Assembly: GCA_016213895.1 (NCBI GenBank)
Contig: JACQZJ010000030.1
Span: 1-62,865, forward strand
Reading direction: 5' to 3'
Length of the DNA: 62,865 nucleotides
Source: Planctomycetota bacterium
Lineage (GTDB): Bacteria > Planctomycetota > B15-G4 > JADJEK01
Part shown: piece after piece, positions 1-36,579 of the stretch
How the letters are laid out: each line of letters begins with the position of its first letter
Numbering within the stretch: the first letter of the stretch is position 1
Made by a program: the position numbers and the translations under genes
The notes under the pieces: generated by a model
Told to the model about the DNA's origin: nothing
The model's input: only the letters and a program-made list of their open reading frames with translations
The model's database searches: none

Positions 1-21
1 CGCCTGCTCCCCCTCCACCGT

Positions 22-15809: not shown

Positions 15810-18070
15810 TCAGCGAGGGGGCGGCAGCCCATGCCGGCGCAGGATGGTGCGCACCTCGTCCGGGAACTCCTGGGCTACTTCGCTCGTGTGCTCGCGCGTG
15901 AGCCGCACGGCCAGGGCGCGCAGCTCCTCCTGCGCGTCCGCGGGACAGAGGCGGGCCGTGGAACCGTCCGCGGCGCGATAGAGCGCCGGCCTTCCAGTCG
16001 ACCAGAGAAGCTCCGAGGCCATGCGCCGCGCCAGCTCCGCGTCCTTGGTGCGAAGAGCGGCGTCCTGCAGGGTTGCGGGCGCCGCCCGCGCCAAAGGCGC
16101 GAGCAGGTCGTGATCCCATTCGGTGGCCGCCGCCAGCACCGCGAGGGGATCAGCGGCTACCACGTGGTCCGGCACGTAGGCGGCGCGCAGAGGGGTCTTG
16201 TCGAACCGCGCCAGCACGACGCGCCAGTCGGCTTGCGTGAACCGCGCCGTCACCGCCGCAAACTCCGCCTCGTCCAGCGAGTGGCCCCAGAGCACGAACT
16301 CCTCGACGTCCATGTGCGGGGAGAGCGCTCGCGCCAGCGACTCCCGCTCCCACCAGGACAGAGCCCGCTCTTGTTCCTCGTCGGTTCCCTGCTGGAGGAC
16401 GTCGTCGCTCCGCAACCACTCGCGCACGACCTCGAGCGCGTCGGCGCGGCCGCAGGACGCGGCCAGGAGCGTGGCGTAGTGCTCGGCCAGGGGATCGTCC
16501 GCCTGGAACGGCGCGCTCGCCACGCCGCGGCGCGCCAGCGCCTCGACCAGCACGTCGCGCCAGGAATCCTCACGCCGTTCCGCCAGCTCGGCGGCGAGGG
16601 CGGCGTCCGTATGCGGCGACGCCGCGAGGACCGGCACCAGCTCGCGGCTCTCGGCCAGGGCGCGCAGCGCGGGCAGCGGCGCCGCGGCGAGCGTCGAAGC
16701 GCCCAGGACCTCGATGACCTCGTCCGGCTGGTCGCACGTGCCGCGCTCGGCCAGCCAGGCGAGGACGGCGTGGGAGCCGTGGATACCCGTGCTCAGGAGG
16801 CGGCGCACGGCCTGGCCGTCGATGTCGCAGTCCGGATCCTCGGCGGCGCGCAGGAGCGCGGGCGGTATGCCGGTCAGCAAGTGGTCGGGAAGCGCGTCCG
16901 CGGCCGCCGCGCGGATCTCCGGGCGGGGATCGCCGAGCGCGGCGAGCAGCGCCGGCGCCACGCGCTCCAGGAGCTCGCTGCTTTCCGGATAGAAGCCCAG
17001 GAGGGCGCAGAACGCCTCCTTCCCTCGCTCGCCTCCCGTGTGCAGCGCCGCCCGCAGCCACACGTCCAAGACCGCCGCGACGCGGGGGAGACCGCGCCCG
17101 CCGGTCAGCAGGTCGCGCCACAGCCCGACAGGACCGTCGCGCATCAGCTGCTGCGCCCCGTCCTCGGTGAGAAGTTTTCCCAGCAGCCGCCAGCGCAGCC
17201 GCTCCTTCTCGGCCTCGAACCAGGCAAGCGTCGCGCCAGGAAGGGCTCCCTGCATCGTGCCGCAGGGATCGAGCGCTTCGCACAGCGACTGGAGCGCGTC
17301 GGAATCCGCCCGCGGCGGGCGCGCGCCAATCCGATCGACGAGGATCTCGAGCAGCGGTGTCCAGGCGAGGACCTCGTCCGGGATCTGCTCGCCGTCGCAG
17401 GTCACCACGCCGTCCCGGAAGCTCGCGTCCACCACGGCAGACCAGAACGGCCCCGTCGCCAGCTCATCCAGGTGACGGCACACCAGATTGAAGCGCGCCT
17501 CGCCGTCAAGCCCGCTGACGTCCGGCGCGGCCAGTAAGCGGAGCAGCGCAGCTCTGTGTTCCTCGTCTGACTCCTGGCGCAAGCCCCTGGCGGCGAAGAG
17601 GGCCAGGCCGCTCCTGCCCGGGTCCGCGTCCTTGCTTGCGCAGGCCCTTCTCCTCTCCTGCGCCTCGGGCAGCGCGAGCGTCGCCGCGGCGAAGACTTCC
17701 AGCACTTCCGGATGGGCGAGCCAGCGCGTCGCGACGCGCTCTCCCTCGGCGAGGAGGGCGAGGGGCCCGGCGTTGCCGCACAGCGCGTGCAGCTCGCGGA
17801 TCGTGTTGCACGCCCGGGATGACTCGCTCGTGTGGAGGAGCGTCCAGAGCAGCGCGGCGATCCGCTCCTGCAGGCGTGCCCCGCTGAGCAGCGGGGAGAG
17901 CGACGCACCTTCCGCGCGAGGGCGCGGCGCCGTCACGACGAGCCGGGCGCCGCGTGACGCGCCGCAGAGGTCCGGCGCGTACATCGCCTCGGCCACGGCC
18001 TGCGGCCACGCCACCTCTCCGGTATGCGCCGGCAGGAGGCGCAGCACGGCCCGGCTGGTCGTCTCGCAGC
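15810..18070 (-). CDS. C-terminal part of alpha-2-macroglobulin gene with HEAT-like repeats (shifted frame)
   Basis: This frame continues the alpha-2-macroglobulin gene after a frame change near 18070. Its first residues (LRLLPAHTGEVAWP, then AVAEAMYAPDLCGASRGARLVV) match the closing segment of bacterial A2Ms, which normally ends near EAMYAPD. About 700 more residues follow, rich in Leu/Ala helices of HEAT type, for example APALLAALGDPRPEIRAAAA and LLRAAEDPDCDIDGQAVRRL. There is no independent start with a ribosome binding site, so translation depends on the upstream frame. Either the gene is broken or the sequence has an error. The HEAT extension on an A2M is unusual. Confidence 0.65.
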
Positions 18071-21000
18071 TCCCAGCCTGAACCGCCGGCCACCTCGAAG
18101 CCCGCCGGCAGCGGGCACGAAACCACCACGTAGGCGACCGGCTCGTCGCAGCGCACCTCGATCCGCGCCTCGAGCAGGTCGCCCAGATGCACCGGGTCCG
18201 CGTCCGCCAGGTCGGTGAGGTGTTCGCTGCCGCTGGCGTCGGTCTCGACGCGCAGCAGCCTGCGCTCGACCTGCAGCGGGGAACGCCAGCCGACATGGGT
18301 CGAGCCCTGCGCTTCCGCTTCCCCTTGCAGCACGGCGACCACCGGCTGCTTGCCGTCCACCGCGACCGCCAGCCTGCCCGCGGCCGAGACCGGCAGCTTC
18401 ACGCGATAGCCGTTCGTCTCGTCGAGCGTCACCGCCAGCGTGCGGGAGTCGTCCTCGATCGTGGCGCGGACCGCGCCGCTCTCTCGGCCGCCGCCATGGA
18501 ACTCGGCGTCGAGCGCGAGCGTGTGGATCGCCGCGGCCGCCGCGAAGGTCGAGACGCTGTTGCCGCCGTGGAGGCGCAGCAGGCGCTCCATGAGGCGCGG
18601 CCGCGCCGGGTGGTCCGGGCTCACGGTCAGGGCGAGCTCCAGGAGCTGCGCGACGCGCTCCGCCTCGGCCTCGCCGACCGGAATCGCGCCTCGCGGCCAG
18701 TCCGGTTGGAGGAGATCGCGCGCGGCGAGGATCCGCTCCAACACGGCCGCCGCGAGCGCCTCGCTGCCGGAACAATGGAGCGCGAGACCGGCACGCGCCA
18801 GCAGTCCCGCGGGCAATGCCTGCTGCTCCTCGACCAGCGCGCGCACCGCGTGCGCGAAGTACGGCAGGTTCGCGCCATAGCGCAGGCACGCGACCAGCAG
18901 CTCCGCCTGGTCCAGGGAGACCTCGTCTTCTCTGTCGCCGACCTGGCTGCCGCAGGCCTCCGCGTGCATGGCGAGCGCCGCCAGCTCGCCTGCGTCGGGT
19001 GTGACCTCGATGCCGTAGCGCGTTCCATCGATGCCGGATTCGCGTGCGTGGGAGAGCGCGGTCAGCGCCAGCGCCGTCATGCGCTCGTCCACCGGTCCGG
19101 CCGGCCACCAGCGGAAGCCCGTGCTGCGATCCGCCAGCAGGCCGCGCAAGTGCGCCATGCCGGCCTCGAGGGCGAGGCCCTGCTCTCGGGAAAGCGAAGC
19201 CTCCCTGCCCTGGCCTGAGACGCGCCGGGCGCGCGCCGCCGCGAACAGGGGCGCCATGCGGGACAGGACCTGCTCGACGCAGCCGTGCGGATAGCCCTGC
19301 AGGTATTCAGCCGCGCGCCGCAGCAGGGCCTCGCGCCCGGAGAGAAGCTCGAGCGTGCGCCGCGCCACGGGGCCGGGCAGGTCATCCGGCAGGCAGAGTT
19401 CCGCGCGCCTCTCGACCAGCACGGCGCTCGACACTGGCCGCACGGTGAGGTCGGGCAGGACGGGCAGGGTGTGCACGGCTGCGTGCGCCGTGGATCCGTC
19501 CGCCACCTCGCTGATCGTGGTGGCTGCCCGCGCTTCGACCGCTCTCAGGCGGAACGTCGTGCGCGCCGCCTCCTCGGGAGCGACGAGCACCGTGGCGCGC
19601 TCCACTCCCTCGACCCTGGCGCCGCCTTCGGCGCGCATCGCGACCTCGCACGGCCCGGCCGTGCCGTCTTGCCTGTTCAGCAGGACGGAAACGTCCAGCT
19701 CATCCCCCTGGCGCAACAGCCGCGGCAGGATCGGCGTGGCCGAGAGCGGCAGCGTGGTCTCGGTCGCGAACGTGCGCAGGCATCCCCGCACGCCGCAATC
19801 GATCGCGGCCACGGTGATGCGCCAGCGGGTCAGGTCATCGGGAAACGTGAAGGAGACGCTGCCGCGCCCATCCTCGTCCGTCTCGAGGGAAGCCGCGAAC
19901 AGCGCCGTGGCCCGGAAGTCCCGGCCCACGGTGAGCGCGCCGATCGCGGCGGGCGCCTTGGCGGGGTTTGCCCAGCCGGAGCCCGCCCCCGAGTACCACT
20001 CCACGGCCCAGGGCGCGATCGCGCCGTCCCGGAGCAGCTCGCCAAGCGTCAGCCAGGGGCTGGGGCAGCCCAGCGAATGGGCAGCCAGAGCCGCGCTCGC
20101 GTCGATGGGCGGCGTGAGCGATAAAGTGGGATGCGCGGTGCGATCCGCCTCCAGCTCGAACACGGTCTCATCCACGACTGCCACGGTCGTCGTGGCCTTG
20201 ACGCCGCGACCCTGTTCGTCGGAAACGCGCAGTTTCAGCTCGGCCCGTTCCCCCGGGGCGTAGCGGGCGCGCGCGTCCAGTTCGACCAGGAGCGGACCGG
20301 CAGGCGGCGAGAGCGCGACGGAGAGCGACGTGCCGTACCAGTACGGGCGCCAGCGCTCCAGAACCTCCGGGATCTCCTGGATCGCGCGCACCACGATCCC
20401 CGGCCAGTGCTCGGGGAGCGTCTCGATGATGACCTCGCCGCGGCCGCGTTCGTCCAGGAGCACGCGCGCAGCGCCGAGGAGGCCCAGCCGCCCATGGGTC
20501 ACGAGCACGGGCCGCCCCGGGAGCCCGCCGGCGAGCCTGATGCGGACGGGCCGGCCGGCCCGCGGCTCCTCGGTGATGAGCGTGAGCTGCAGACCGTCGT
20601 CGGCCGCGGCCACCTGCTCTTCGGCCTCGAGGCGGAAGGAACAACTGTCGGCGAGGATCTGACCGTCGGGCGCCACGACCTCGAAACGAACGGACACCTG
20701 CTGTTCGCCGGGGGGCAGCGGCAGCTCATGCAGGTGGAGCGGCGCCCGCGCGGTGCCGCTGCCGTCGAGAAGGAAGGCGCGTTGTTCCTGCAGCGGCCCC
20801 ACGCTGGCGATGATCCTCCCGGCAAGCCCCGCGGCCGGCGGGCCGGCGGGGTAGCGCGCGCGCACCGCGACGAGCGCCGGCTCGCCCCGGCGCGCCAGTT
20901 CCGGACCGCTTGCCTCGACCAGCAGGAAGGGCCGGCGGAACTCGCGCACGGCAAACGGAGTCCACGTGCCCACGTCCAGGTCCTTGCGACCGTCCGCGCT

Positions 21001-22371
21001 CGGGCTGGATGGATTGCTGTCGGTAAGGCTCAGTGTCAGGCTGGCATTGCCGAGGGGCGTCGCCTGGCCAAGAGGCAAGGTGAACGGGATCACGCCCGAG
21101 GCGTCGCTTCGCGCCTCGATGGTCTCCTCGGCGGGCGAACCCTCCCAGAACGTCAATCGTGCCGGCGCGCAGGCGAGGGGCAGGCTGTGGATGCGGTCGT
21201 CCTTCAGGTCGTGGCGCCGGAGCACGACGCGGCCCTGCACCGTGTCTCCCGGCCGGTAGAGCGGCCGATCGACCATCACGTGCGCTTCGATCCAGGATGA
21301 CTCGTGTTCCGAGGCCTGGAGACACAGGTCATGCACGCGCGCACAGTGTCCGCCCGCATCCGCGATCACGTCGAACCGCATACTGCGCGCCCGCAGGTCC
21401 GCCGGTATACGCACCACGGCCAGTCCCATCTCGTCCGTGCTCAGCTCGAAGCGCCGCTCGCAGGCGCCGCTGCTGTCGACGCCAATCGACACGTTCGCGC
21501 TGGCCGCCGGGGTGCCGCCGAGGCTCGCCAGGACGGCGATGCCGTCCTCCCATGCCTCGACGGTCAGGGACAGGTCGGAGACCAGGAGGCGCCGCAGGGT
21601 CGTCGATCCAGAGGCGAGCGACCTTTGTTCGAGCAAGTACTCCCCGGGCGGCGGCGCCTCCACCTGCTGGCCGAAGACGGCCGCTGCCAGGCGCCGCGGC
21701 GGTGACCCGGGGCCCCTGGCGTCGCGGTACACCTCCAGGACGCAACGGCCGTCGTCCGGCCAAGGCAGGAAGCGCACCTCGATGTCCTCGGCCAGGGGTG
21801 CCGGGACCGGGATGAAGGCGCCGGCGGCGATCCGCACGGGTCTGTCCACTCTGGCGACCGCGGCCGTGGCGAGGATCCACTCCGCGTCCTGCAGGGCTTC
21901 CTCGGCGCCTCGCCATTGGCGCTGCGTCTCGAGCGCATCCTGGAAGCCTGCGAGCAGCTCGGCCACCCGCACCACGTCGACGGTATCACGATCGTCGTCG
22001 TATGCGGGACCGTCCCGGCCGGGGAGTCCGGAGTCCGCGAGCAGCCAGTCGCGATCCTGGAGGTCCAGAAGCGCGGCGAGCCCCGCTACCAGGGCGGTGT
22101 CCGCGGCCGGCGTACGAGCGTAGATCCGGCAGATCTGCAGCATGGCCTCGGCGCGCGCGCCTGCGTCGAGGGTCGCTGCCTCGAGCAGGACGCGCGACGC
22201 GAGGTCCACCGCGGCGCCAGCCTCGGGCAGGAGGTCGCGCGCCGCCGCGAGGTCGCCCAGCAAGACGTGCTGGCGGAAGCGGACCAGAGCAGCCGGCTCA
22301 TCGCCGGGCGTGCCTCCGGCCTGGAGCAGCAGGAAGGGCACGAGGCAGTGGATCGCGCACGAGCCGGGCAT
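18066..22371 (-). CDS. bacterial alpha-2-macroglobulin family protein, N-terminal part
   Basis: The start at 22371 follows GGAAGGAG at ideal spacing and gives a signal peptide. An MG2-like segment (VDRPLYRPGDTV, about residue 368) is followed by further macroglobulin domains. The A2M core lies near residue 840 (TFPDDLTRWRIT), and the thioester domain carries YPHGCVEQ with the thioester Cys at residue 1031. Such proteins trap attacking proteases in the periplasm. Homology continues to GWELRDD near 18075; this frame then stays open to 17506 without likeness, while the expected A2M ending appears in the next frame. About ten to fifteen residues usually found at this point seem missing, so a small deletion is more likely than one skipped base. 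No pbpC partner is in the window. Confidence 0.85.
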
Positions 22372-22591
22372 GGCGCGGCTCCTTCCGCATGGCGTGGAAT
22401 GGCCCAACAGCGGAAGGAGCAAAAAGCACGCCACACCCCGCTTTCTCCCAAGGAGGCGGAATCGGGGAGGGCGCTGCTACGATCTGGTAACCAGGCGTTA
22501 CGCTGCCGACCAACTCACGCGCGCCTGCTGGCGCTGATCGCAAGCAAGCCGCAGCGCCGTGGGTCGCGGCGAGGTTGAGCCCATGCGCCCG

Positions 22592-23507
22592 CTACGGCGG
22601 CGCGACCGTGGAGAAGCTGTTGTTGATGAAGATGTTCTGCTCGGGGCCCGTCTGGTCGTCCAGGTCGTAGTCCTGGCTCTTGCTGGCCTTGTTCTGGACG
22701 AAGACGTTGCCCGTGCCGACCACGGAGAAGCCGCTCATGGAGGCCTTCGTCACCGTGTTCTTGCTCACGAGCGCGCCGGAGCATCCCAGCGCGATGCGGA
22801 TGCCGTCCTCGGCCGACTCCGTGACGGTGTTCTGGAGGAGGGCGCAGAAGTCCGAGTCGATGAAGACTCCGTAGTCGCCGGTCTCGCGCACCGTGTTCTT
22901 CGAGATGACGTGGCCGTCGGAGCCGGCCTCCGCGATGACTCCCTGGACCACCGAGTTGATCACGCTGTTCTCCAAGATGCTGCAGTCCTGGGCGTCCGCG
23001 AAGCACAAGATCCCGACGGTGCCAGCGCCGGTGATCTTGTTGCCCAGCACCAGGGCGTTCCGGCAGCCGGTCGCTCCGTCGCCGACCTGGATCCCCGCCT
23101 CACCCGTCCCGTCGATGGTGTTGGCCTCGAACGTGTGCATGTCCCCATCGGCCTCGATGCCTTCCATTGAGGCGTTCTTGATCTTGTTCTTCTGCACGAC
23201 GCAGCCGTCGCAGTCGTGCAGGTTGATGCCATCGCCGCCGGGCGCGGTGATGGAGCACTTGTCGATCAGCACGCCGGTCGAGCTCGTGACCAGGATGCCG
23301 TCCTCACCCGTGTTCTTCAGGGCGCACTGGCGGACGGTCACGTAGGTCGAGGAGCCGATGAACACCCCCTGGCTCTGCGTGTCCTCCAGGCGCAGGCTCT
23401 TCAGCACGATGCGATCGCTCGCGTTGATGAAGAAGACCGGGTCCGGGCCGTTGCCCGCGTCGACCGTGACCTTGTCGCCCTTCTTTGCCTGGATGGTCAG
23501 GTCCGAC
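22592..23507 (-). pseudogene. right-handed beta-helix protein, unit 1, start deleted
   Basis: The frame encodes about 300 residues of right-handed parallel beta-helix (PbH1/NosD-like) coils, with repeated G-I-x(n)-N-x-I turns such as NTVTESAEDGIRIALGCSGA. It ends in a tail (DDQTGPEQNIFINNSFSTV). Compared with the sister units, the signal peptide, start codon and about 45 following codons are missing. The presumed leader sequence (reading CACACGGAGCAC on the minus strand) joins directly to the codons for SDLTIQ at about 23507. Only a weak GTG at 23407 could serve as a start. It is the third unit in the direction of transcription. Confidence 0.7.
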
Positions 23508-23537
23508 GTGCTCCGTGTGTGCTGACCCTTGGGCCGA

Positions 23538-23552
23538 GGGAGAGCCTCTCCC
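23538..23552 (-). terminator. hairpin after beta-helix unit 2
   Basis: GGGAGAG-C-CTCTCCC lies directly after the stop codon of unit 2. The sister gap (24560-24576) keeps the same stem with a different loop. There is no T-run, so termination or mRNA stabilisation are both possible. Confidence 0.4.
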
Positions 23553-23554
23553 CG

Positions 23555-24525
23555 TTACGGCGCGATGGTGCCGAACTTGTTGTTGATGTAGGTGTTCTCC
23601 CCGGGCAGCGTGTCGTCGTCGAGGTCGAAGAGCCCGCTCTTGCTCGCCTTGTTCCCGACGAAGGTGTTGCCGGTGCCGCGCACGGTAATGCCGTTCTCCA
23701 GGCACTTGGTGATCGTGTTCTTGATCACGAGCGCGCCGGAGCACTCCGTGGCGATGCGGATGCCGTCTTCGGCCGAGGTGGCGATCGAGTTCTTGTGGAT
23801 GGTGCAGCCGTCGGACTCGATCACGATCGAGTGGTCGCCGGTGCTCCGCAGCTTGTTCTTCGAGATGAAGTGGCCGCCTGGACCGTCCGCCGTGTTGATG
23901 CCCTCATTCTCCGGATCGTCCACGTCGTTCTCCAGGATGGTGCACTGCTGGGCGTCGGCGAGGCAGGAGATGCCATCATTCCCGGACTTCGTGATCTTGT
24001 TGCCGGACACCAGGGCGTTCAAGCAGCCGGTGACTCCGTTGCCGAGCAGGATGCCCTCGGCGCCCGGCGCGGTGATGGTGTTGGCCTCGAACGTGTGCAT
24101 GTCTCCATCGGCCTGGATGCCCTCCTCCACCGTGTTCTTGATCTTGTTCTTCGTTGCGACGCAGCCGTTGCTGCTCGTCAACCGCAAGCCCTCGGTGCCG
24201 GGCGCGGTGATGGAGCACTTGTCGATCAGCACGCCCGTCGAGCCGTTGATCCGGATCCCCTCTTGAGCCATGTTCTTCAGGGCGCACTGGCGGACGGTCA
24301 CGTAGCTGGAGGAGCCGATGAACACGCCCTGGCTCTGCGTGTCCTCCAGGCGCAGGCTCTTCAGCACGATGCGATCGCTCGCGTTGATGAAGAAGACCGG
24401 GTCCGGGCCGTTGCCCGCGTCGACCGTGACCTTGTCGCCCTTCTTTGCCTGGATGGTCAGGTCCGACCGGCACCGGGACTCAAGGACGCGGCGACGAGGA
24501 TGACGGCAAGTGCACTGGTTCTCAT
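23555..24525 (-). pseudogene. right-handed beta-helix protein, unit 2, internal deletion after signal peptide
   Basis: The ATG at 24525 opens a 22-codon frame encoding a signal peptide (MRTSALAVILVAASLSPGA) and ends at a TGA at 24457-24459. Relative to unit 3, about 45 codons between the signal peptide and SDLTIQ are missing. The join near 24467 puts the beta-helix out of frame. The remaining frame, downstream to 23555, holds intact PbH1-type coils and the tail DDDTLPGENTYINNKFGTIAP. About 160 bp near 24301-24463 are almost identical to 23341-23503 in unit 1, which indicates recent duplication or gene conversion. Confidence 0.7.
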
Positions 24526-24559
24526 GCTGGTGCTCCGTGTGTGCTGACTCTTGGGCCGA

Positions 24560-24576
24560 GGGAGAGTGTCTCTCCC
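24560..24576 (-). terminator. hairpin after beta-helix unit 3
   Basis: GGGAGAG-TGT-CTCTCCC lies directly after the stop of unit 3 and matches the hairpin at 23538-23552 with a changed loop. There is no T-run. Confidence 0.4.
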
Positions 24577-25674
24577 CTACGGCGCAATCGTGGGGAAGGT
24601 GTTGTTGATGTAGACATTGTCGCCGGGGAGCGTATCGTCGTCGAGGTCGTAGGCGGCACTCTTGCTCGCCTTGTTCTGGACGAAGGCGTTGCCCGTGCCC
24701 TGCACGCCGACGCCGTTCCCCCCGGACTTGGTGACCTTGTTCTTGCTCACGAGCGCGCCGGAGCAAGTTGTCCCGATGAAGATGCCGTCCGCGGCCGGTT
24801 CCGTGATGGTGTTCTGGAGAAGGGAGCACCAGTCGGATTCGAGCGTGATCCCCAAGTCGTGACCATCACGCAGCGCGTTCTTCGCGATGAGGTGGCCGTC
24901 GGAGCCTCCCGTCACGTAGATGCCATCGCTTCCCGGCTCGATCAGGTCGTTTCCCAGGATGGTGCAGTCCCGGCTATCGGGCCTGCACCAAATGGCGTAG
25001 CTGAACGTGGCCGTGACCTTGTTCTCCAGGACCAGGACGTTGCTGCATCCGGCCGCTCCGTCTCCGAGCAGGATCCCGGCGCCACCCGTCCCGTCGATGG
25101 TGTTGGCCTCGAACGTGTGCATGTCCCCATCGGCCTCGATGCCCTCCACTCCGGCGTTCTTGATCTTGTTCTTCACCGCGACGCAGCCGTCGCTGAGGTG
25201 CACATGGATGCCATCGCCGCCGGGCGCGGTGATGGAGCACTTCTCGATCAGGACGCCGCTCGAGCCGTTGATCTGAATGCCGTCCTGAGCCACGTCCTTC
25301 AGGGCGCACTGGCGAATCGTCACGTAGGTCGAGGAGCCGATGAACACGCCCTGGCTCTGTGTGTTCTCGAGGCGCAGGCTCTTCAACACGATGCGATCGC
25401 TCGCGTTGATGAAGAAGGGCGGGTCCGGGCCGTTGCCCGCGTCGACCGTGACCTGGTGGCCCTCTTTTGCCTGGATGGTCAGGTCCGACCTGGCGTTGAC
25501 GACGATGTTCTCGGCGTAGGTCCCCTACGAGATCTCGATGACGTCGCCCGCGGCGGCCGCGTCCACGGCCGCCTGGATGGTCGCGTGGTCTGCCGGCACC
25601 TTGATCTTGGCCGCGGCGGCGGTCGGACTCAATGATGCGGCGATGAGGATGACGACGAACGGTCCGGTTCTCAT
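24577..25674 (-). pseudogene. right-handed beta-helix protein, unit 3, in-frame TAG
   Basis: This is the most complete unit. The ATG at 25674 gives a signal peptide (ending SLSPTAAAA) and then KIKVPADHATIQAAVDAAAA, a typical opening of NosD/pectate-lyase-like helices. A TAG at 25525-25527 interrupts the frame at codon 50, where homologues read GTYAENI after a Pro or Glu codon; a GAG to TAG change would explain it. The frame then continues through about ten PbH1 coils to NTFPTIAP at 24577. Family members are secreted carbohydrate-binding or -cleaving proteins; no catalytic residues can be assigned. Unless the TAG is read through or is an error, the product is a 49-residue stub. Confidence 0.72.
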
Positions 25675-25745
25675 GCTGAATCTCCGCGCGTGTTGACCCC
25701 TGAGGCGAGGAAGCGCTCGATTCTACCGCCGATCCGCCGCCTCGC

Positions 25746-26315
25746 CTACTTCGCGGCGCGCTTCCTGGCCCACTCAGGCGTACGCACCTCGCCTGACGCT
25801 CCGTCCGGACCCGGACTGTACGGCTTCAGGTCGAGGATCGGGGTCGAGTCGAACGCGTCGATGTCCTCGACCGTCACCACGCGGCCCTCGACGGAGAGGA
25901 TGCGACAGGTGCTGAGCGCCAAGAGGTTCGGCCTGACCGGAGAGCGGCAGGCGAAGACGCCGGTCATGGGAGCGCTCGCGTCGCCCCGCGGGCGCACCTG
26001 GAGCACGGCGCGTTGCTCGGGCGTGTCGTTCTGGTCGAACCAGTAGATGACCTGCACGTGCGACCACTCGGCCAGCCCGAGCAGCCCGTCCGCGTAACGC
26101 TCGTCGATCTCGAGCCGCACCGGGCCGCTCTTGCCCTTCACGACCTTGCCGATGGGATGGACGCTGAACACGCGTTCGCCCTCCGCGGCCGCGAGGGCCG
26201 TTTCGCCGGGAGCTTCTCGGCCCGCGGGCCCGAACTGACACGCGGCGAGGGGCCCTGCGAGAGCAGCTGCCGCGAGCCAGAGCCCGCCGCGAAACCGCGT
26301 CACACGGACGTTCAT
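25746..26315 (-). CDS. lipoprotein with TsaA/TrmO-like domain
   Basis: This 189-residue protein has a lipoprotein signal peptide (LAGPLAAC, lipidated Cys26). Residues 49-170 match the TsaA/TrmO (YaeB, UPF0066) beta-barrel fold: FSVHPIGKVVK, LEIDERYADGL, WSHVQVIYWFD, GVFACRSPVRPNLLALSTCR and VEDIDAFDSTPILDLKPY. TrmO uses S-adenosylmethionine to methylate t6A37 in tRNA in the cytoplasm, so a lipidated, exported version is unexpected. It may have taken another role, or the signal may be misread. It is divergent from a metallo-beta-lactamase lipoprotein gene, with a 98-bp shared promoter region. Confidence 0.8.
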   Translation of the reverse strand: MNVRVTRFRGGLWLAAAALAGPLAACQFGPAGREAPGETALAAAEGERVFSVHPIGKVVKGKSGPVRLEIDERYADGLLGLAEWSHVQVIYWFDQNDTPEQRAVLQVRPRGDASAPMTGVFACRSPVRPNLLALSTCRILSVEGRVVTVEDIDAFDSTPILDLKPYSPGPDGASGEVRTPEWARKRAAK

Positions 26316-26413
26316 GTCGATCTCTCCGGGGAACGCGAAACCGGTAGCATCGTAACTCCTCGGCCCGCTGCCACGAACACCCGGCTGGCGCGCGCCGCAG
26401 GCACGAGGTCCGG

Positions 26414-27295
26414 ATGAAACCGCGCGAGCTTCTCCTTCTGGCCCTGCTCGGCGCCGGCTGCGCGGCGCCCGTTGAGAACGACCAGCCGCTCGCGGTCACG
26501 TACCTCGCGAACGAGGGCTTTCTAATCGAGAGCGGGTCCACGAAGCTGCTCATCGACGCCCTGTTCGACGACGAGACCATCGAGTACTGCGACGTGCCGG
26601 ACAGCGCGCTGCGGGCGCGGATGGAGGCGGCGCAGGGGCTTTTCTCGGACGTGGACCTGGTGCTGGTCACACACGCCCACGTGGATCACTTCGATCCGCG
26701 CTGCGTCCTCGCCCACCTGCGAAGCAACGCGCGCGCGACGCTCGTCTGTCCATCCCCGGCTGCCGCGGCCATGCAGGCGGAGCGCCTGGGTGACAGCGAG
26801 ACCGCGCAGAGAACGCGCGCGCCCGCCCTGGAGCCGGGGCGCTCCGTGGACCTGGTGGAGAACGAGATCCGCCTGACCGCCATGCGCCTGCGGCACGGGC
26901 GCTACCTGGTGATGGACGAGGAGACGGGCCGCCAGTACGACCGGCACGAGAAGGTCGAGAACCTGGCCTACCTCGTCGATCTCGGCCGCTGGCGCATCCT
27001 GCACCTCGGGGACGCGGCGCTCCTGCAGAACGAGGATCTGCTCGAGGGGCTGAAGCTGAACGAACGATCTCTCGACCTGGCCTTCGTCCAGTGCCATTCC
27101 CGCGACGCCGAGAGCGTGCGCATTCTCTCGGACCTCATCGCCCCAACGCAGGTCGTCTGGATGCACCTGCCGGCGGAAAGGCAGCGCAAGGAGGCGCTCG
27201 GCGCCTTCCTGGCGCAAGCCTGGCCCGGCTCCTCGGTCTTCCTCGAGCCGCTCGAGACGCGGACCTTCTCCGCGCCGGGCGCGCCTCTGCCATAG
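26414..27295 (+). CDS. metallo-beta-lactamase-fold lipoprotein
   Basis: This 293-residue protein has a lipobox at LGAGC (Cys16) and a metallo-beta-lactamase fold of the UlaG/L-ascorbate-6-P-lactonase-like type. The zinc motif THAHVDHFD (His87, His89, Asp91, His92) is intact. A later His in MRLRHGRY and the Asp in LHLGDAAL complete the metal site. The closing His near QVVWMHLP is also present. Substrate unknown; it acts outside the cytoplasm. TAGCAT at 26345-26350 could be a -10 element. It converges on the DUF1080 gene with 7 bases between. Confidence 0.85.
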   Translation: MKPRELLLLALLGAGCAAPVENDQPLAVTYLANEGFLIESGSTKLLIDALFDDETIEYCDVPDSALRARMEAAQGLFSDVDLVLVTHAHVDHFDPRCVLAHLRSNARATLVCPSPAAAAMQAERLGDSETAQRTRAPALEPGRSVDLVENEIRLTAMRLRHGRYLVMDEETGRQYDRHEKVENLAYLVDLGRWRILHLGDAALLQNEDLLEGLKLNERSLDLAFVQCHSRDAESVRILSDLIAPTQVVWMHLPAERQRKEALGAFLAQAWPGSSVFLEPLETRTFSAPGAPLP

Positions 27296-27302
27296 AGACG
27301 CG

Positions 27303-28628
27303 TCAGCCCTCGATCGGCGCGAGCCGGATGTTCTGGAAGTGCATTTCCGCCCCTTCGGCCTGCAGCGCCACGTGGCCCGGCCGCACGAGCACGTCCCACG
27401 CCTCGTTCACCACCTCGTCATTGACGATGAGCGTGATCCTCGGCCCGTCCACGATGATCTCGTACTGGTTCCACTCGCCGATCGGCCGCTCGGCGCCGTG
27501 CGTCTTCTGCGTGTTGCGGCCGGACATGCGCTCCGGCGCGGTGCTCATCGGGTACTCGCCGATGGTCCAGAAGTCGCCCGCCGCGCCGCTCATGAGCTGG
27601 GCCTCCACGCTCTCAGGCCAGACTTGGTGCTCGCCGCCCACGCGCAGGAGCACGCCGCCGTTGCCGGCCTCTAGCGTCTCCGGGTTGAAGCGCCATTCCA
27701 GCTTGAGCACGTAGCTCTCGTAGGTGGCCGCGGTGTAGAGGTAGCCGGCCGGGGTCCCGGCGGTCTTGAGCAGCCCGTCCTCCACGCGCCACGCATCCGT
27801 GCCGGTCGAGCCGTCCTCGGAGAAGCACTGCCACCCCTCCAGGCTCTCGCCGTTGAACAGCTCGACCTCGCCCGGCACGGGCCGGGTCAGGTCGCGGACC
27901 TTGAGGTTCCTGAACCAGATGTCGTTGCCGTGATCCTGCAGGCAGAGGTGCCCGGAGCCCTGCCGGCCGAATCCCGCGTACTCGCTGAACTTGCTGTTCG
28001 CGACGCGCTCGTTCCAGTCGTCGCCGCCGAGCTCGGCCTCGAGCACCTTCACGCCGTTCACGAAGTGCGAGAGACGTCCGGCCCGAACCACGATGCGCCC
28101 GCTGTTCCACTCGCCGGCCGGCTTCAGGGTCTTGTTCTCGGGCGCGTAAAGCGCGTAGAGCGCGCCGCAGGAGTGTGGGTCGTTCGGTTCGACGCCCGCC
28201 CCGGCATCGTCGAAGATCTGGTACTCGGGGCCGGTCTGCCACGGCGCCTCTTCCGTCTCAGCGACGTGGAACATGACGCCGCTGTTGGCCCCCTCCGCCA
28301 CCTTCCACTCGAAGCAGAAGTCGAACTCGGCGAAGCGGTCGATGGTCACGATGTCCCCGCCGCCGCCGCCCGCGACCACGCGCAGGCAGCCGTCCTCGAC
28401 CGCCCAGCCGGCCTCCGGGAACGCGTCACGGCCGTAGCCGCGCCAGCACTCCGGCGACTCGCCGTCGAAGAGCAGCGTCCAGCCGGCGGCCTTCTCCGCG
28501 GGCGTGAGGGCCTGCGCCTCTTCTTGCGGCGCAGCGCCGCCCGCCGGTGCGGCGAGCAAGGAGAAGAGCGCGAGGGCCGCGGGCGCGAGGACGTTGCGGG
28601 CGCGGGCGGCTTCTTTGTTCACCAGCAT
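27303..28628 (-). CDS. secreted double-DUF1080 (3-keto-disaccharide hydrolase-like) protein
   Basis: This 441-residue protein has a signal peptide (about residues 1-33) and two DUF1080 lectin-like jelly-roll domains. The first opens at GWTLLFDGESPECWRGYG and the second at VELFNGESLEGWQCF. Conserved motifs such as EWKVAEGANSGVMFHV, GPEYQIFDD and WNQYEIIVDG are present. DUF1080 enzymes cleave glycosidic bonds next to a 3-keto sugar by an elimination route. The start at 28628 gives the signal peptide. It is the last gene of a five-gene operon, 10 bases after the preceding stop. The Gfo/Idh/MocA oxidoreductases upstream would make the 3-keto group. Confidence 0.85.
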   Translation of the reverse strand: MLVNKEAARARNVLAPAALALFSLLAAPAGGAAPQEEAQALTPAEKAAGWTLLFDGESPECWRGYGRDAFPEAGWAVEDGCLRVVAGGGGGDIVTIDRFAEFDFCFEWKVAEGANSGVMFHVAETEEAPWQTGPEYQIFDDAGAGVEPNDPHSCGALYALYAPENKTLKPAGEWNSGRIVVRAGRLSHFVNGVKVLEAELGGDDWNERVANSKFSEYAGFGRQGSGHLCLQDHGNDIWFRNLKVRDLTRPVPGEVELFNGESLEGWQCFSEDGSTGTDAWRVEDGLLKTAGTPAGYLYTAATYESYVLKLEWRFNPETLEAGNGGVLLRVGGEHQVWPESVEAQLMSGAAGDFWTIGEYPMSTAPERMSGRNTQKTHGAERPIGEWNQYEIIVDGPRITLIVNDEVVNEAWDVLVRPGHVALQAEGAEMHFQNIRLAPIEG

Positions 28629-28638
28629 GGTCGAAACC

Positions 28639-29439
28639 TCAGCTTGTCGTTTCCCGGCCAGCGCGCGGCGCCGGCCGCCAGAGATCCACGAGGACGAGCA
28701 GTAAGGACAGGGCAGTCGCGGCCGCGAAGGCGGCACCGCCGCCGGCGATCGCGAACACCCAGGCATCATTCGTTCGAGCGAGCAGCCAGGACGCGAGGTC
28801 GGCGGCCAGCCCCAGGGCGAAGACCAGGGCCAGGAGCCCGACGAGCGGCCGCGGCCAGGCCGTGCCGAGGAGCAGGATCAGGGTGACGAGCGCGACGAGC
28901 GTCATGCCGAGGGCGTGCGTGTGCAGCGAGGCGAGGATGATCGCGGGAGCGGTCGCCTCGACCTCCTGGGCGAAGGCGACCAGCTTGACGTCGGGCCAGC
29001 CCTCCAGCGGGACGGGCGGCTCGCCGCCCGCGGCCTGCTCAGGCGCGCGCGCGTGGCAGGAGAGGCAGCGCGCGGCGATGATCTCGGCGGGCGCGGCGTC
29101 GCCGAGGTCGAGGTTGTCGTAGTCCTCGCTCAGGCGCCCGCTCGCGAGCCAGCGCAGCAGCAGAGCGCGATCGCTCTCCGTCAGGGAGGCATCCGCCTCG
29201 GCGTCCGCGTGTCCCCGCTCGAGGATCGCGCGCATGGGCGACTCGCGCCGCACGCCGTGATAGTGCGCGCGCACGTCGTCGAGCGAGAGCCCGGGCCTGT
29301 CGTCGCGCTTCTCCAGGTGCTCCGCCAGGTAGCGTCCCGAGGCGCAGAGCCCGCCGAGCAGGACGAGAAGGAGCACGCTCAAGGCCAGCCGGATCGGCCA
29401 GGCTTCAGCGCGCCAGCGCGGGAAGGTCGCGCCGGACAT
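28639..29439 (-). CDS. membrane protein with a CxxCH haem-type motif
   Basis: This 266-residue protein has one N-terminal membrane segment (residues 17-35) and a soluble region with RCLSCH (Cys125, Cys128, His129), the covalent haem c attachment motif. Three more membrane segments (about residues 160-245) follow. The second contains HTHALG near its start, offering possible haem ligands. The layout suggests a small membrane-bound cytochrome that carries electrons outside the cytoplasm. No named family was recognised. It starts 3 bases after the upstream Gfo/Idh stop and ends 10 bases before the DUF1080 gene. Confidence 0.7.
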   Translation of the reverse strand: MSGATFPRWRAEAWPIRLALSVLLLVLLGGLCASGRYLAEHLEKRDDRPGLSLDDVRAHYHGVRRESPMRAILERGHADAEADASLTESDRALLLRWLASGRLSEDYDNLDLGDAAPAEIIAARCLSCHARAPEQAAGGEPPVPLEGWPDVKLVAFAQEVEATAPAIILASLHTHALGMTLVALVTLILLLGTAWPRPLVGLLALVFALGLAADLASWLLARTNDAWVFAIAGGGAAFAAATALSLLLVLVDLWRPAPRAGRETTS

Positions 29440-29442
29440 GCC

Positions 29443-30675
29443 TCAGTCCTCCTCGAAGAGGGAGGGGTCGATCTCGACCGTGGCGCCGCTCCGAACCGCC
29501 TGGTCGGCGAGGATCCCCACGGCCGCGGCGCGCAGGCCCTCCGCCGCCTGGCAGGCCAAGGGCGCTCCCGCGGCGACGCTTTTCACGAAGTCCTCGAGCG
29601 CGTAGTAGAGCGGCGGATGCGGCAGCCCGATGCCCTCCTTCAGCTTGCCCTGGGCCGCGAGCTTGGTGGCGTCGGCGATGAGGGTGATCCCCTCCTCGTT
29701 GTGGAACTGCTGGCGGTTGGCATACACCTCCCAGCCCTGGGTCACCGCGTCCGCCTCCTTGAACAGCCAGCCGGCCGTGCCGCACAGCTTGATCGTGCCC
29801 ATCGTGCCCGCGACCTGCTCATACTGGCCCTCGAAGGAGTTGGCCAGCGTGGCGTCATAGATGAGCTCGACGCCGTCCTCGAAGGAGAGGGTGCACTGCA
29901 CCGTGTCCGCCAGCTCGCGCCCGTCCTGGTGCATGCGGATGGCGCCGGTGCCGCGAACGCGCCGCGGGTACTTGCCGTGGAACCAGTGGGCGACGTCGAA
30001 CTGGTGCGTGCCGCACTCGCCCGCCAGGCCGATCGACACCTCCGGATCGAGGCGCCAGTTCACCTCGCGCTCGCGCGCGGGGTCGGCGGCCGGCGTGCGC
30101 CACGAGGTCTTCCTGTGGTTCTGGGCGCGCAGCGCCACGACCTCGCGGATCGCGCCTGAGCGCAGGAAGGAGTGGGCCAGCTTGTAGATGGGGTTGGAGC
30201 GGCCGGTGAGCCCGGCCTGGCACACGCGGCCGGAGCGCGCCGCGGCCGCGACGATCGCCTGGCAGTCGGCGATGGTGGCCGCGAGCGGCGCCTCGCAATA
30301 GACGTGGCGGCCCGCGGCGAGCGCGTCCTCCGCGACCTCGCGGTGGCGGTGCGTCGGCGTGGCCACGATGACCGCGGCAAGCCCGCCGCTCTCTGCGAGC
30401 AGCTCGCGGTGATCCGCGAAGGGCCGCGCGCCGGGCGCGCGCCGCGCGCCCGACTCGAGGCGGCTCGCGTCGCTGTCGCAGATCGCCGCCACCGCCAGCC
30501 CCTCGATCTTTTGCAGCTCGGCGAGGATGGCGCGCCCCTGGCGTCCCGCGCCGACCACCGCGACCTGGAGCGGCTCGTCGAGCACGAGCGTCCGGCCGGC
30601 GAGGGCAGGCATCAAGGCGAGGGCCGCGGCCCCGCCGGCCTGCTGCAGAAAGAGGCGGCGTGTGGTCTCGTTCAT
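29443..30675 (-). CDS. TAT-exported Gfo/Idh/MocA oxidoreductase
   Basis: This 410-residue protein has an N-terminal TRRLFLQQ twin-arginine signal followed by a hydrophobic stretch. A Rossmann NAD(P)-binding fold begins at VAVVGAGRQGRAI (about residue 39). The second domain has the usual EAPLA (in place of EKP) and GECGTHQFDVAHWF active-site segments; the family Lys of EKP is Ala here, which is uncommon. Members oxidise sugars at a ring carbon with NAD(P). The start at 30675 overlaps the ApbE stop (ATGA), so translation is probably coupled. The C-terminus carries SGAT, resembling an ApbE flavinylation tetrad, but in a place where the family often reads R-S-G. Confidence 0.85.
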   Translation of the reverse strand: MNETTRRLFLQQAGGAAALALMPALAGRTLVLDEPLQVAVVGAGRQGRAILAELQKIEGLAVAAICDSDASRLESGARRAPGARPFADHRELLAESGGLAAVIVATPTHRHREVAEDALAAGRHVYCEAPLAATIADCQAIVAAAARSGRVCQAGLTGRSNPIYKLAHSFLRSGAIREVVALRAQNHRKTSWRTPAADPAREREVNWRLDPEVSIGLAGECGTHQFDVAHWFHGKYPRRVRGTGAIRMHQDGRELADTVQCTLSFEDGVELIYDATLANSFEGQYEQVAGTMGTIKLCGTAGWLFKEADAVTQGWEVYANRQQFHNEEGITLIADATKLAAQGKLKEGIGLPHPPLYYALEDFVKSVAAGAPLACQAAEGLRAAAVGILADQAVRSGATVEIDPSLFEED

Positions 30676-31634
30676 TGGCTTTCCCAGCAATGGAAGGCGG
30701 CGGCCCGGTCTCCGGCGGCGCGGGACTCTTCCGCGCGCGCGGCGCCGGCCTGGTCCAGAGGGACGATGAGCGACGTGACCTCCGGGCCGAGCGCGGGCGG
30801 GCGCCGGCCGAGGGCGATGAGCGCGGTCGACCAGGCGTCGCTCTCCCTGGCCGAGCGCGAGAGCGCTGCGGCGAGCGCGGCGCCGCCCGTGATTGGCCGC
30901 GCGGTCGCGGGATCGATGACGTGGCCGAGGCGCTCGCCGTCCTGCTCGAGCCAGCGCCCGAAGCGGCCCGAGACCGAGAGCGACTCGTCGGCGAGGGTCA
31001 CGCGCGCAAAGCGGCCGGGCCCCGCGCCTCCGGCGGGCGCGGGCAGGCGCACGGCCACGTCGAACCCTTCCTTCCCCGGCGGCCGGCCGATTGCCTTGAT
31101 CGTGCTCGTGCCGCCGTGCAGGAGCGCGGCCTGCACCGCACCGTTCGCCTGGCGCACGACGCGCTCGGCCAGGTCGAGCGCGTGTCCCTTGCCGATCGCG
31201 CCCAAGTCGAGCGCCATGCCGGGCCGGGCGAAGCGCACGCTGTGCTCTTCCTCGTCGCGCAGCAGGCCGTCCGAGCCGATGAAGAAGGCGCCCGCCGCGC
31301 CAGGGCAGGCCGGGGCGGCCGCGTCGTGGAAGCCGAGCGCGCGCATGGCCGGGCCGATGGTCACGTCGAAGGCGCCGCCCGAGGCCCGGTGCACCGCGAG
31401 GCAGGCGCGCAGCAGGCCGAACGTGTCCTCATCGAGGCGCACCGGCCGCGCGCCGGCCGTGCGGTTCACGTGCGCGAGCAGGCTGTCCTGCCGGAAGACG
31501 CTGAGCCTCCGGTCCCACTCGCCGATCTCCGCGAGCGCCGCCTCGGCCACGTCGCCGAGCGCGCGCTCCCCCTCGCCGGCGAGGGCGATCTCGAAGCGCG
31601 TGCCCATGGCGAAGAGGGCGCGGCGCACGATCAT
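30672..31634 (-). CDS. apbE: FAD:protein FMN transferase
   Basis: This 320-residue protein transfers FMN from FAD to Thr/Ser of redox proteins. Family motifs are present: MGTRFEIAL at the N-terminus, GGAFDVTIGP, LDLGAIGKGHALD, HVIDPATARPI and a metal-binding ESDAWSTALIALG near the end. No signal peptide is seen in this start, although family members usually act outside the membrane; a missed upstream start is unlikely because only 21 bases separate it from the previous gene. The ribosome binding site is GGAAGG. It sits inside the Gfo/Idh - CxxCH - DUF1080 operon, so its target may be encoded here or elsewhere. Confidence 0.9.
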   Translation of the reverse strand: MIVRRALFAMGTRFEIALAGEGERALGDVAEAALAEIGEWDRRLSVFRQDSLLAHVNRTAGARPVRLDEDTFGLLRACLAVHRASGGAFDVTIGPAMRALGFHDAAAPACPGAAGAFFIGSDGLLRDEEEHSVRFARPGMALDLGAIGKGHALDLAERVVRQANGAVQAALLHGGTSTIKAIGRPPGKEGFDVAVRLPAPAGGAGPGRFARVTLADESLSVSGRFGRWLEQDGERLGHVIDPATARPITGGAALAAALSRSARESDAWSTALIALGRRPPALGPEVTSLIVPLDQAGAARAEESRAAGDRAAAFHCWESQ

Positions 31635-31655
31635 CTGCGGTCCGCCTTCCCTCTG

Positions 31656-33017
31656 CTACGCCTGGCGCGCGGTCATGGTCGTGGGATCGAAGACGTAGGC
31701 GTGGCCCTCCCACATGGAGCGCGTGGCCAGGTCCACGGCGACCATCATCTTGCTGGCCAGGTCGATGCCGCTCACCGCCGGCTCGCGCGAGCGGATCGAG
31801 TCGAGCCAGTTGACGCGCAGGGCGTCCTGGTCGTCGCCGATGTCCGCACAGGCGACGGTCTGCTCCTCGATCTCGTCGGCATAGATGCGCTCCGGCCGCA
31901 GCACGCAGTCGCGGCCGTTCAAGTAGAGCGTGGCCTTGTGGCCGCGGATCATCACCTCGATGCCGACCTCGTTGCACGTCGAGCCGGCGACGATCATGGT
32001 GTGGCCGCGCTCGAACTCGATGGTCATGTTGACCTGGTCGTGGTTCTCCATCTTCTGGTCGACGTAGTGCCCGCCGGAGGCGGTGACGCGCGTCGGCCAG
32101 CCGGCGTCGAGCGCCATCATCAGCGGCGTCATCTGGTGCACGAGCAGGTCGCCAACGATGCCCGTCGAGAACTTGCGGTAGCGGCGCCACTGCGCCAGGA
32201 CCGCGCCGTCGAACGGCTGCGGCCCGAGCGGGCCGCACCAGCCCTCCCAGTCGAGGTTCTCGCCTGGGACGACCTCGGGGTCGATGGTGTAGTAGAGCCA
32301 CTCCCCGTCTTTGGAATTGCGGCAATAGCTCGTCTGGCTGAACGTCGGCTTGCCGATCACGTCCTCGGCGATGAGCTTTTTGGCCGCTCCCCACTTCGGC
32401 AGGATCATCTTCTGCGTGCCGACCTGGAAGATCATGTCCGGATTGGCGAGCACCACCTGCCTGAGGCGCAGCGCCTCGGGCAGGCGCAGCGTCATCGGCT
32501 TCTCGACGTAGACGTCCTTGCCGGCGGCGAGCGCGTCGATCGCCATCTGCGCGTGCCAGTGCTCGGGCGCGGCGATGAGGACGCCGTGCAGATCGGAGCG
32601 CGCCAGCAGCTCGCGGTAGTCGCGATGCACGTCGACCTTGGCGCCCTGCTTCTCCTCGCAGCCGCGGTGCGTGCTCGCCAGGCGCTTCCTGTTGACGTCG
32701 CACAAGGCGGCGATGCGCACGTTCGCCCGGCCCTCGGCGTTCAAGTTCATGAACGAGACGCAGTGGGCGTCGCCCATGCCGCCCGTGCCGATCACTCCCA
32801 TGAGCACCGGCTCGCCCGGCGCGAGGGGCGTGCGCGGGGCGTGGCGCGGAATGGGCCCGGCCGCGGCGCCGATCGCCGGGACCGAGCGGCACGAGGCGAG
32901 CGCGGCCGCGGCCGCGGCGAGCGCCGCGGCGTTGCCCAGGAACTCGCGGCGCGACGGCCGCGCGTCTTCTGGCGGGGTGGCGGGGGACGGCTGGACGGGG
33001 GATGCGTCTCGGCTCAC
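31656..33017 (-). CDS. TAT-exported Gfo/Idh/MocA oxidoreductase, first gene of operon
   Basis: This 453-residue protein has the twin-arginine motif SRREFLGNAA (about residues 22-31), a hydrophobic core and ALASC that could also act as a lipobox. The Rossmann motif VIGTGGMGDAH follows. EKPMTLRL supplies the catalytic Lys, and GDLLVHQMTPLMMALDAGWP contains the conserved His region. It belongs to the planctomycete-type TAT-exported Gfo/Idh/MocA group. It opens the five-gene operon that ends with DUF1080 and is divergent from the aldehyde dehydrogenase gene across 166 bp. It probably oxidises a sugar or cyclitol outside the cytoplasm or during export. Confidence 0.88.
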   Translation of the reverse strand: MSRDASPVQPSPATPPEDARPSRREFLGNAAALAAAAAALASCRSVPAIGAAAGPIPRHAPRTPLAPGEPVLMGVIGTGGMGDAHCVSFMNLNAEGRANVRIAALCDVNRKRLASTHRGCEEKQGAKVDVHRDYRELLARSDLHGVLIAAPEHWHAQMAIDALAAGKDVYVEKPMTLRLPEALRLRQVVLANPDMIFQVGTQKMILPKWGAAKKLIAEDVIGKPTFSQTSYCRNSKDGEWLYYTIDPEVVPGENLDWEGWCGPLGPQPFDGAVLAQWRRYRKFSTGIVGDLLVHQMTPLMMALDAGWPTRVTASGGHYVDQKMENHDQVNMTIEFERGHTMIVAGSTCNEVGIEVMIRGHKATLYLNGRDCVLRPERIYADEIEEQTVACADIGDDQDALRVNWLDSIRSREPAVSGIDLASKMMVAVDLATRSMWEGHAYVFDPTTMTARQA

Positions 33018-33183
33018 GGCGGTCTCCTTCGCGGGATCCGGGGGCGATACGTGGTCGGGGGCCGGAATCCGTCAGACTAGCGATCCGGGGAGGAAAGCGC
33101 GCCCGGATTCGCGTCGCGCCGCCGCGCGCGGGAGGTATCATGCCGCGTTCTGGCGCCGCCGATCGGGCGGCGAGGGGAGGAAC

Positions 33184-34740
33184 ATGAACCGACGTATGGC
33201 GAGGATGCGCACGCGTATGGACTTCCTGAGAGATCTGGGAATCGGCAAGACGAACTCGGGCGCCTACTGCGGCAAGTGGCTGAAGTGCTCCGGCGCGGTG
33301 CTCGAGAGCAGGAACCCCGCGACCGGCAAGGTCATCGCCAAGGTGAAGCAGGCCGGCCCCGAGGACTACGAGAAGTGCCTGGCCGCGGCGCACGAGGCCT
33401 TTCTCAGGTGGCGCGAGGTGCCGGCGCCCAAGCGCGGCGAGATCGTGCGGCGCGTGGGCAACGCCATTCGCGCGCGCCAGGAGGCCCTCGGCCGCCTGGT
33501 CACCCTGGAGAACGGCAAGATCCTCCAGGAGGGGCTGGGAGAGGTGCAGGAGGCGATCGACATCGCTGACTTCGCGGTCGGGCAGTCGCGCATGCTCTAC
33601 GGCCTGTCCATGCATTCGGAGCGGCCCGCCCACGCCATGCGCGAGCAGTGGCATCCGCTCGGCGTGGTGGGCGTCGTCACCGCCTTCAACTTCCCCATGG
33701 CGGTCTGGGCCTGGAACTCGATGATCGCCTGGATCTGCGGCGATCCCTGCGTGTGGAAGCCCTCCAGCTCGACGCCCTTGTGCGCCATCGGGCTGGTCAA
33801 CGCCTGCCGGCCGATCCTCGAGGAGGAGGGCTTCGGCGCACTCGCCACGCTGTGCATCGGCTCGGGCCGGGACGTGGGCCAGAAGCTGCTCGAGGACGCG
33901 CGCGTGCCGCTCGTCTCCTTCACCGGCTCGACCGCGGTGGGGCGGAAGGTCGCCGGCACCGTGGCGCAGCGCTTCGGCCGCACCATCCTCGAGCTGGGCG
34001 GGAACAACGCCGTGGTCCTCATGGAGGACGCGGACCTCAAGCTGGCCATCCCCGCGATCGTGTTCGGCGCGGTCGGCACGGCCGGACAGCGCTGCACCTC
34101 GACGCGCCGCGTGCTGGTGCACGAGAGCATCCTGTCCGAGGTCGAGCGCCGCCTGCTCGCGGCCTACGAGAGCATCCCGATCGGCGACCCCATGGACGGG
34201 AAGACGCTCTGCGGCCCGCTCATCGACGAGGACGCGGTGAAGACCATGATAGACGCCCTGGAGCGCGTGAAGGCCGAGGGTGGACGCGTGCTCTACGGCG
34301 GCGGGCGCGTGAAGCTCGGCGGGCGGCTGGCCGGCGGCCACTTCGTCCGGCCGGCGATCGTGAGCGCCGAGAACCACTACGGCATCGTCCAGGAGGAGAC
34401 CTTCGCGCCGATCCTCTACCTCATTCCCGTGGGCGGCCTGGACGAGGCCATCGCCAAGCACAACGCGGTGCCGCAGGGGCTGTCCTCGGCCATGTTCACG
34501 CTCAACGTGCGCCACGCCGAGCGCTTCCTCTCGGCAGCGGGCTCGGACTGCGGCATCGCCAACATCAACATCGGCACCTCGGGCGCCGAGATCGGCGGAG
34601 CGTTCGGCGGCGAGAAGGAGACGGGCGGCGGCCGCGAGTCCGGCTCCGACGTCTGGAAGGCCTACATGCGGCGTCAGACGAACACGGTGAACTGGTCGAC
34701 GGCCTTGCCGCTCGCCCAGGGCGTCAAGTTCGGCGACTGA
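33184..34740 (+). CDS. ALDH7-family aldehyde dehydrogenase
   Basis: This 518-residue protein is most like the antiquitin / alpha-aminoadipic semialdehyde dehydrogenase group. Catalytic residues are visible: Glu270 in LELGGNN and Cys304 in GTAGQRCTSTRR. The C-terminal signature GTSGAEIGGAFGGEKETGGG followed by RESGSDVWKAYMRR is typical of ALDH7. The reaction would be NAD-dependent oxidation of an amino-aldehyde, as in lysine breakdown. The ATG follows GGGGAGGA. TATCAT at 33136-33141 could be the -10 box. The APC permease gene begins 27 bases after the stop, which fits uptake and catabolism of an amino acid. Confidence 0.9.
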   Translation: MNRRMARMRTRMDFLRDLGIGKTNSGAYCGKWLKCSGAVLESRNPATGKVIAKVKQAGPEDYEKCLAAAHEAFLRWREVPAPKRGEIVRRVGNAIRARQEALGRLVTLENGKILQEGLGEVQEAIDIADFAVGQSRMLYGLSMHSERPAHAMREQWHPLGVVGVVTAFNFPMAVWAWNSMIAWICGDPCVWKPSSSTPLCAIGLVNACRPILEEEGFGALATLCIGSGRDVGQKLLEDARVPLVSFTGSTAVGRKVAGTVAQRFGRTILELGGNNAVVLMEDADLKLAIPAIVFGAVGTAGQRCTSTRRVLVHESILSEVERRLLAAYESIPIGDPMDGKTLCGPLIDEDAVKTMIDALERVKAEGGRVLYGGGRVKLGGRLAGGHFVRPAIVSAENHYGIVQEETFAPILYLIPVGGLDEAIAKHNAVPQGLSSAMFTLNVRHAERFLSAAGSDCGIANINIGTSGAEIGGAFGGEKETGGGRESGSDVWKAYMRRQTNTVNWSTALPLAQGVKFGD

Positions 34741-34767
34741 CCCGCGAAGCCGGGAGCGCTGCGCGTC

Positions 34768-36108: not shown

Positions 36109-36260
36109 AGCGCCCGGGCCCCGCACGCCGCCAGCTCCGCGAGGGACACGACGTCCGCGCGCGGCCCCAGGGCATAGCGCCGTTCACCGGGGTAGAGCAC
36201 GGCGAGGCGGTCCAGGCCGAGGTCCTCGAGCGCGATCCGCATCGAGGGCGTGAGCCGCGG
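35971..36260 (+). repeat. 290-bp direct repeat, left copy
   Basis: This segment aligns without gaps to 38930-39219 at a constant offset of 2959. It covers the 3' end of the permease gene and, on the other strand, the 3' end of a DUF4143 ATPase gene. The two copies differ at scattered positions, most densely just after the permease stop, so the duplication is not recent. The pair brackets the GGDEF-EAL gene. Confidence 0.85.
36057..36242 (-). pseudogene. DUF4143 ATPase C-terminal remnant within the left repeat
   Basis: On the minus strand this reads ALEDLGLDRLAVLYPGERRY and matches the last 60 residues of the larger DUF4143 remnant at 39016-39588. It stops at the repeat boundary (36260). It overlaps the permease 3' end in antisense. 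It has no start and no upstream domain. Confidence 0.6.
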
Positions 36261-36579
36261 CTGCGCTTCAGGGCGGCGCGGTCAGCGGCGGGCCAGGCGG
36301 CCGGCCGCACGTGCCTCGCGGCTGCGTGACTTTCCAGCACTTGCGGGCGACTGGCGCTGGCCGGCGCCAGCCTGTAGGTTGACCACCTGGTGCCCGTCGC
36401 AGGCGATGGGGCCGGGGCTTAGCTGGCGCGTCCGAGACGTCACGAGCGACGCCCCAGCACGTCGCGCCAAGGAGAAGGATGCGGAGGTTCTCCAAGCAAG
36501 TCACGGCCCTCAGAGCGAGGTGCCCCAACAGCGTCCGTCATGCGACCATGGCGCTGGCGGCGCGGAGGAAGAAGAAACC
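36261..36579. other. upstream region of the GGDEF-EAL gene
   Basis: These 319 bases hold no recognised gene. A TGGCGC / GCGCCA inverted pair with a 6-base loop lies near 36349-36366. No promoter could be assigned with confidence. Confidence 0.4.

Follow-up and report, generated by a model that had tools for sequence, protein, structure and literature searches.

A probable young pseudogene array of tandem beta-helix genes with a locally copied tract in an uncultured planctomycete-like bacterium

Three tandem beta-helix units lie head to tail on the minus strand in an uncultured planctomycete-like bacterium, and the locus raises the question of why all of them are damaged in front, with two of the truncations stopping at practically the same point. 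The window, i.e. the whole stretch of DNA analyzed, is 62,865 nucleotides long with a G+C content of 71%, and belongs to the draft genome G000 (218 contigs, 95.5% complete). The original prediction for this locus envisaged two independent deletions with one shared end, and headless units serving as a sequence reservoir for one expressed copy. The evidence presented here makes it probable that the locus is a young pseudogene array shaped by birth-and-death evolution and local gene conversion, a case of ordinary gene decay rather than a new switching system.

The features of the array and its flanks are collected in Table 1. In one flanking gene, a TrmO_N domain, which normally belongs to a tRNA-modifying enzyme, sits behind an apparent lipoprotein signal peptide; this gene is conserved in the sister genome. 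The start of the window (1-388) is a dispersed imperfect repeat: matches to its first 300 bases occur at about 90 places in the genome, in stretches about 100 or about 200 nt long and 71-97% identical; an Rfam search of this window start returned no family.

Table 1. Positions of the three units, their lesions and tracts, and the flanking genes in the window.
Feature	Position	Strand	Remarks
Unit 3	24577..25674	-	Full-length beta-helix gene with nonsense codon; ORF reading and PF13229 in body
In-frame TAG, codon 50 of unit 3	25525..25527	-	Context GDVIEIS*GTYAEN; CAG (Gln) in sister genome
Unit 2	23555..24525	-	Start codon and signal peptide present; 127 nt gone relative to unit 3
Unit 2 signal-peptide frame	24457..24525	-	MRTSALAVILVAASLSPGAGRT, then TGA
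Unit 1	22592..23507	-	Headless body; front without start codon and signal peptide
Unit 1 5' leader, retained	23508..23554	-	35/36 nt as in unit 2 leader
141-nt tract in unit 1, identical to unit 2	23367..23507	-	Shared end point forms its upstream edge
141-nt tract in unit 2, identical to unit 1	24327..24467	-	
TrmO-domain lipoprotein-like gene	25746-26315	-	One flank of array
Alpha-2-macroglobulin-like (A2M) gene	17506-22434		Other flank of array

All three units are broken, each by a different lesion. As originally described, unit 3 is one of three tandem copies and has a complete head, starting with ATG at 25674 and interrupted by the TAG at codon 50. For unit 2, the claim that the signal peptide is still encoded holds, but the stated loss of about 45 codons hides a frame break: compared with unit 3 the net deletion amounts to 127 nt, which is not a multiple of three, so that signal peptide and body lie in different frames. 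The signal-peptide frame, MRTSALAVILVAASLSPGAGRT, meets its TGA just past the junction and the body is never entered. In unit 1 the start codon and signal peptide are indeed gone, making it 62 nt shorter than unit 2, but the leader, also thought to be lost, is retained: it matches that of unit 2 in 35 of 36 nt and is present up to GGAGCAC, from which it runs straight into GTCGGACC. Homology to unit 3 starts at 24468 for unit 2 and at 23507 for unit 1. At an offset of 960 these positions are a single base out of register, which confirms that the two truncations end within one base of each other. The frame of unit 1 comes directly after the stop codon of unit 2, in the same frame; a read-through fusion between the units was considered and rejected as a frame coincidence only.

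The coincident end is largely explained by copying, since the shared point is the edge of a tract over which units 1 and 2 are identical. From this point inward 141 nt are the same, after which the identity is about 76%. Units 1 and 2 show a single difference in the 144 nt of the first 48 codons but 185 in the 759 nt of the remaining 253 codons; over the first 48 codons each of them shows 10-11 differences from unit 3. A permutation test on the run of ten successive polymorphic sites common to units 1 and 2 gives p = 0.0008. In the tree, unit 1 clusters with unit 2 inside the tract, but beyond the tract unit 2 clusters with the copy of the sister genome (support 91). Furthermore, dS is 0.03 in the tract, while two flanking orthologues compared with the sister genome give 0.29 and 0.38. 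Local identity is thus combined with phylogenetic conflict, the pattern by which gene conversion is recognized, and the comparison indicates that copying of one unit's front onto the other took place after divergence from the sister genome. Consequently, the ends of units 1 and 2 are not independent, and the two separate deletions first proposed give way to another option from the same proposal, the spread of one end by gene conversion; neither a recombination hot spot nor a cassette is needed. At both junctions the search for microhomology gave no convincing repeat, and the fold of the unit 2 stretch from leader to junction is weak. A 12-nt direct repeat, GACCATCCAGGC, formed by the codons for ATIQA in the head and LTIQA in the body, was rejected as a deletion substrate, since the bases retained by unit 2 include some upstream of the body copy but none upstream of the head copy.

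The bodies of units 1-3 comprise 301-302 codons, are open and show zero indels between units. The original description of them as open and well kept is correct in this respect, but openness is weak evidence here, because of the high G+C content, because the strand antisense to the array is itself open for 443 codons, and because an unconstrained simulation leaves the body free of stops in about 19-46% of runs. Outside the tract, the dN/dS values of the damaged trio (0.71-0.98) have wide intervals spanning both neutrality and the range of the family, and are only slightly above those of intact relatives. Body values in the intact tandem pairs of the family, mostly 0.3-0.8, are also high, which makes fast change a family trait. 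Judged by these ratios, barely above those of intact relatives, a long neutral decay of the bodies is not shown, and this counts against the preferred reading.

The comparison with a related genome that had been proposed was carried out with the same-genus genome G001 (which includes contig DYIW01000333.1), where the locus is split over contigs C64 and C260. C64 matches window positions 25502-36261 at 88% and has the same upstream neighbor; its head is intact, with CAG in place of the TAG. On C260 the body is intact and 347 codons long, and the A2M gene follows it at 86%. The lesions are thus absent at the orthologous locus, with head and body lying on two contigs that may form one gene. By homology the gap between them is 14 nt, and its phase is compatible with a single continuous gene, although extra units in the gap are possible. 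No other bodies of the clade of the trio were found in G001 beyond C260. Two sister-genome contig ends (L073, position 1; L045, position 5844) lie at the SDLTIQ point that also marks the deletions in the window, a warning that this place may be hard to assemble. The sister beta-helix gene at L045 4802-5842 also contains an in-frame internal duplication of about 46 codons, which fits slippage or unequal exchange between coils, as expected.

In G000, 24 places are related to unit 3, and 46 Beta_helix matches are found at E <= 1e-10. Of the family genes outside the locus, 16 were read, and every one keeps the start, the signal peptide and, in frame, VPxDxxTIQAAVxAxxGDxIxVxxGTYxExV or a close variant. 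Contig C42 carries an array (L037 10043-17408) of six tandem beta-helix genes, all intact, whose heads are conserved and whose bodies diverge fast; dN/dS reaches about 0.8, exceeding 1 for some pairs in columns 50-100, and the longest identical run between any copies is at most 36 nt. In an intact tandem pair of G001 (C122), an 87-nt identical run lies near the 5' end. A search of viral contigs gave no relatives, and no relevant papers were found on planctomycete tandem beta-helix genes or on gene conversion involving beta-helix pseudogenes.

With respect to the encoded proteins, the three bodies score 95-106 bits against PF13229 (Beta_helix; curated cut-off 25.9). Unit 3, with the TAG read as Gln, was modeled together with 18 relatives. 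The unit 3 model is a right-handed parallel beta-helix with regular short strands (pLDDT 93.6, pTM 0.90), in which the predicted cap helix (residues 33-39) and first strands (45-60) lie inside the part missing from units 1 and 2, although most of the unit 2 signal peptide remains, out of frame. According to the model, products of headless units would not be exported and would have no cap, because the lost stretch corresponds to the signal peptide, the N-terminal cap helix and the first coil. Scores, the confident helix model and regular asparagines ally the trio with the Beta_helix PF13229/TIGR03804 repeat proteins, from which it differs in that the genes at this locus are broken in front. Fold matches in the PDB include AlgE epimerases, the adhesin PfbA, NosD and tailspikes, at 10-17% identity. 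The best are AlgE-type mannuronan C5 epimerases (5lw3, 2pyh; TM about 0.6), but identity is about 15% and the invariant columns of the family are almost all structural. NosD (PF05048; 7o0y) combines a fold match with a weak sequence match, but the score is 27 bits against a subfamily cut-off of 300. The invariant columns are mostly glycines, hydrophobic residues and evenly spaced asparagines (N218, 242, 266, 288, 312 and 334), with no invariant His, Lys, Arg or Glu among them. This conservation suggests a scaffold or binding role rather than a conserved enzyme, and the intact proteins are probably exported helices, non-enzymatic or in contact with carbohydrate.

The main rival to the pseudogene reading is an assembly or consensus error, in which three genes intact in the cell were mis-joined at near-identical 5' ends. 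It is unlikely, but several observations are compatible with it: the genome is a draft, the sister assembly breaks at the very same point (the 14-nt gap before C260), damage within the family is confined to this locus, the heads of the 16 other G000 genes being intact, and an exact repeat of 141 nt is of the order of size of an assembler word length. Against it, three different lesions, one of them a point nonsense codon, are not what one mis-join produces; the 127-nt and 62-nt junctions lie away from shared words; the array is inside the 62.9-kb contig; and neither end of the window has an exact overlap with another contig end. Contig-end overlaps, examined to infer the assembly word length, likewise gave no exact overlaps. 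The break in the sister assembly, together with right ends that coincide within one base, could also reflect two independent deletions at a hot spot such as the short palindrome CAGGTCGGACCTG, which is found at the shared point in unit 3. This is improbable, as the identical tract shows recent common ancestry of units 1 and 2 exactly there, the palindrome stem measures only 6 bp, and 0 of the 16 other family genes in G000 are cut at this place.

Readings that assign the units a function fare worse. It is very improbable that the tandem beta-helix arrays of the genus form a recombining diversity system for exported proteins, with fronts and bodies swapped between neighbors at a fixed SDLTIQ boundary and the trio as parked bodies. 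Still harder to credit is an archive of silent units that recombine into a single expressed copy, in the manner of pilS/pilE- or vlsE-type variation. The adjacent headless bodies, the copied tract and the fast body evolution in the family resemble such antigenic variation systems, but no intact expressed recipient sharing DNA with silent copies was found for the trio. The locus holds no intact unit, the closest intact relative in the genome has only about 41% protein identity, and the reservoir idea is therefore left without a copy close enough to be fed by the units. The short identical runs within the intact C42 array also give no sign of ongoing shuffling there. The least credible reading is that translation of the bodies continues, either initiated internally (e.g. 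at the GTG at 23407) or by TAG/TAA read-through, and that the products are used inside the cell. Open bodies and the frame of unit 1 directly following the unit 2 stop would allow it, but such products lack signal peptide and cap, and the head is kept in every other family gene read in G000.

A young pseudogene array therefore remains the best explanation. Three body copies arose by duplication and diverged, and every unit is now without a usable front: through a nonsense codon in unit 3, the 127-nt frame-breaking deletion in unit 2, and loss of start and signal peptide in unit 1. In units 1 and 2 the leader and the initial 141 nucleotides of the body became (near) identical recently. In the proposed sequence of events, the deletion would have hit unit 2, and homologous recombination between neighbors would then have placed its leader and truncated front onto unit 1, unless the transfer went the other way. 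Unit 1 would subsequently have lost a further 62 nt, from the leader to the old junction. Points against this reading are that the tract is short, that the start of the body is conserved across the family anyway, and that the right end of the 62-nt loss falls at the old junction within one base; this last coincidence is unexplained by copying and needs chance or a weak spot.

The locus illustrates that an apparently striking shared deletion end can stem from tract copying between tandem genes. If recombination were ongoing, the arrays would offer a tractable surface-diversity system; nothing here requires it. Beyond this, the analysis describes a family of exported beta-helix proteins that is expanded and evolves fast in an uncultured genus.
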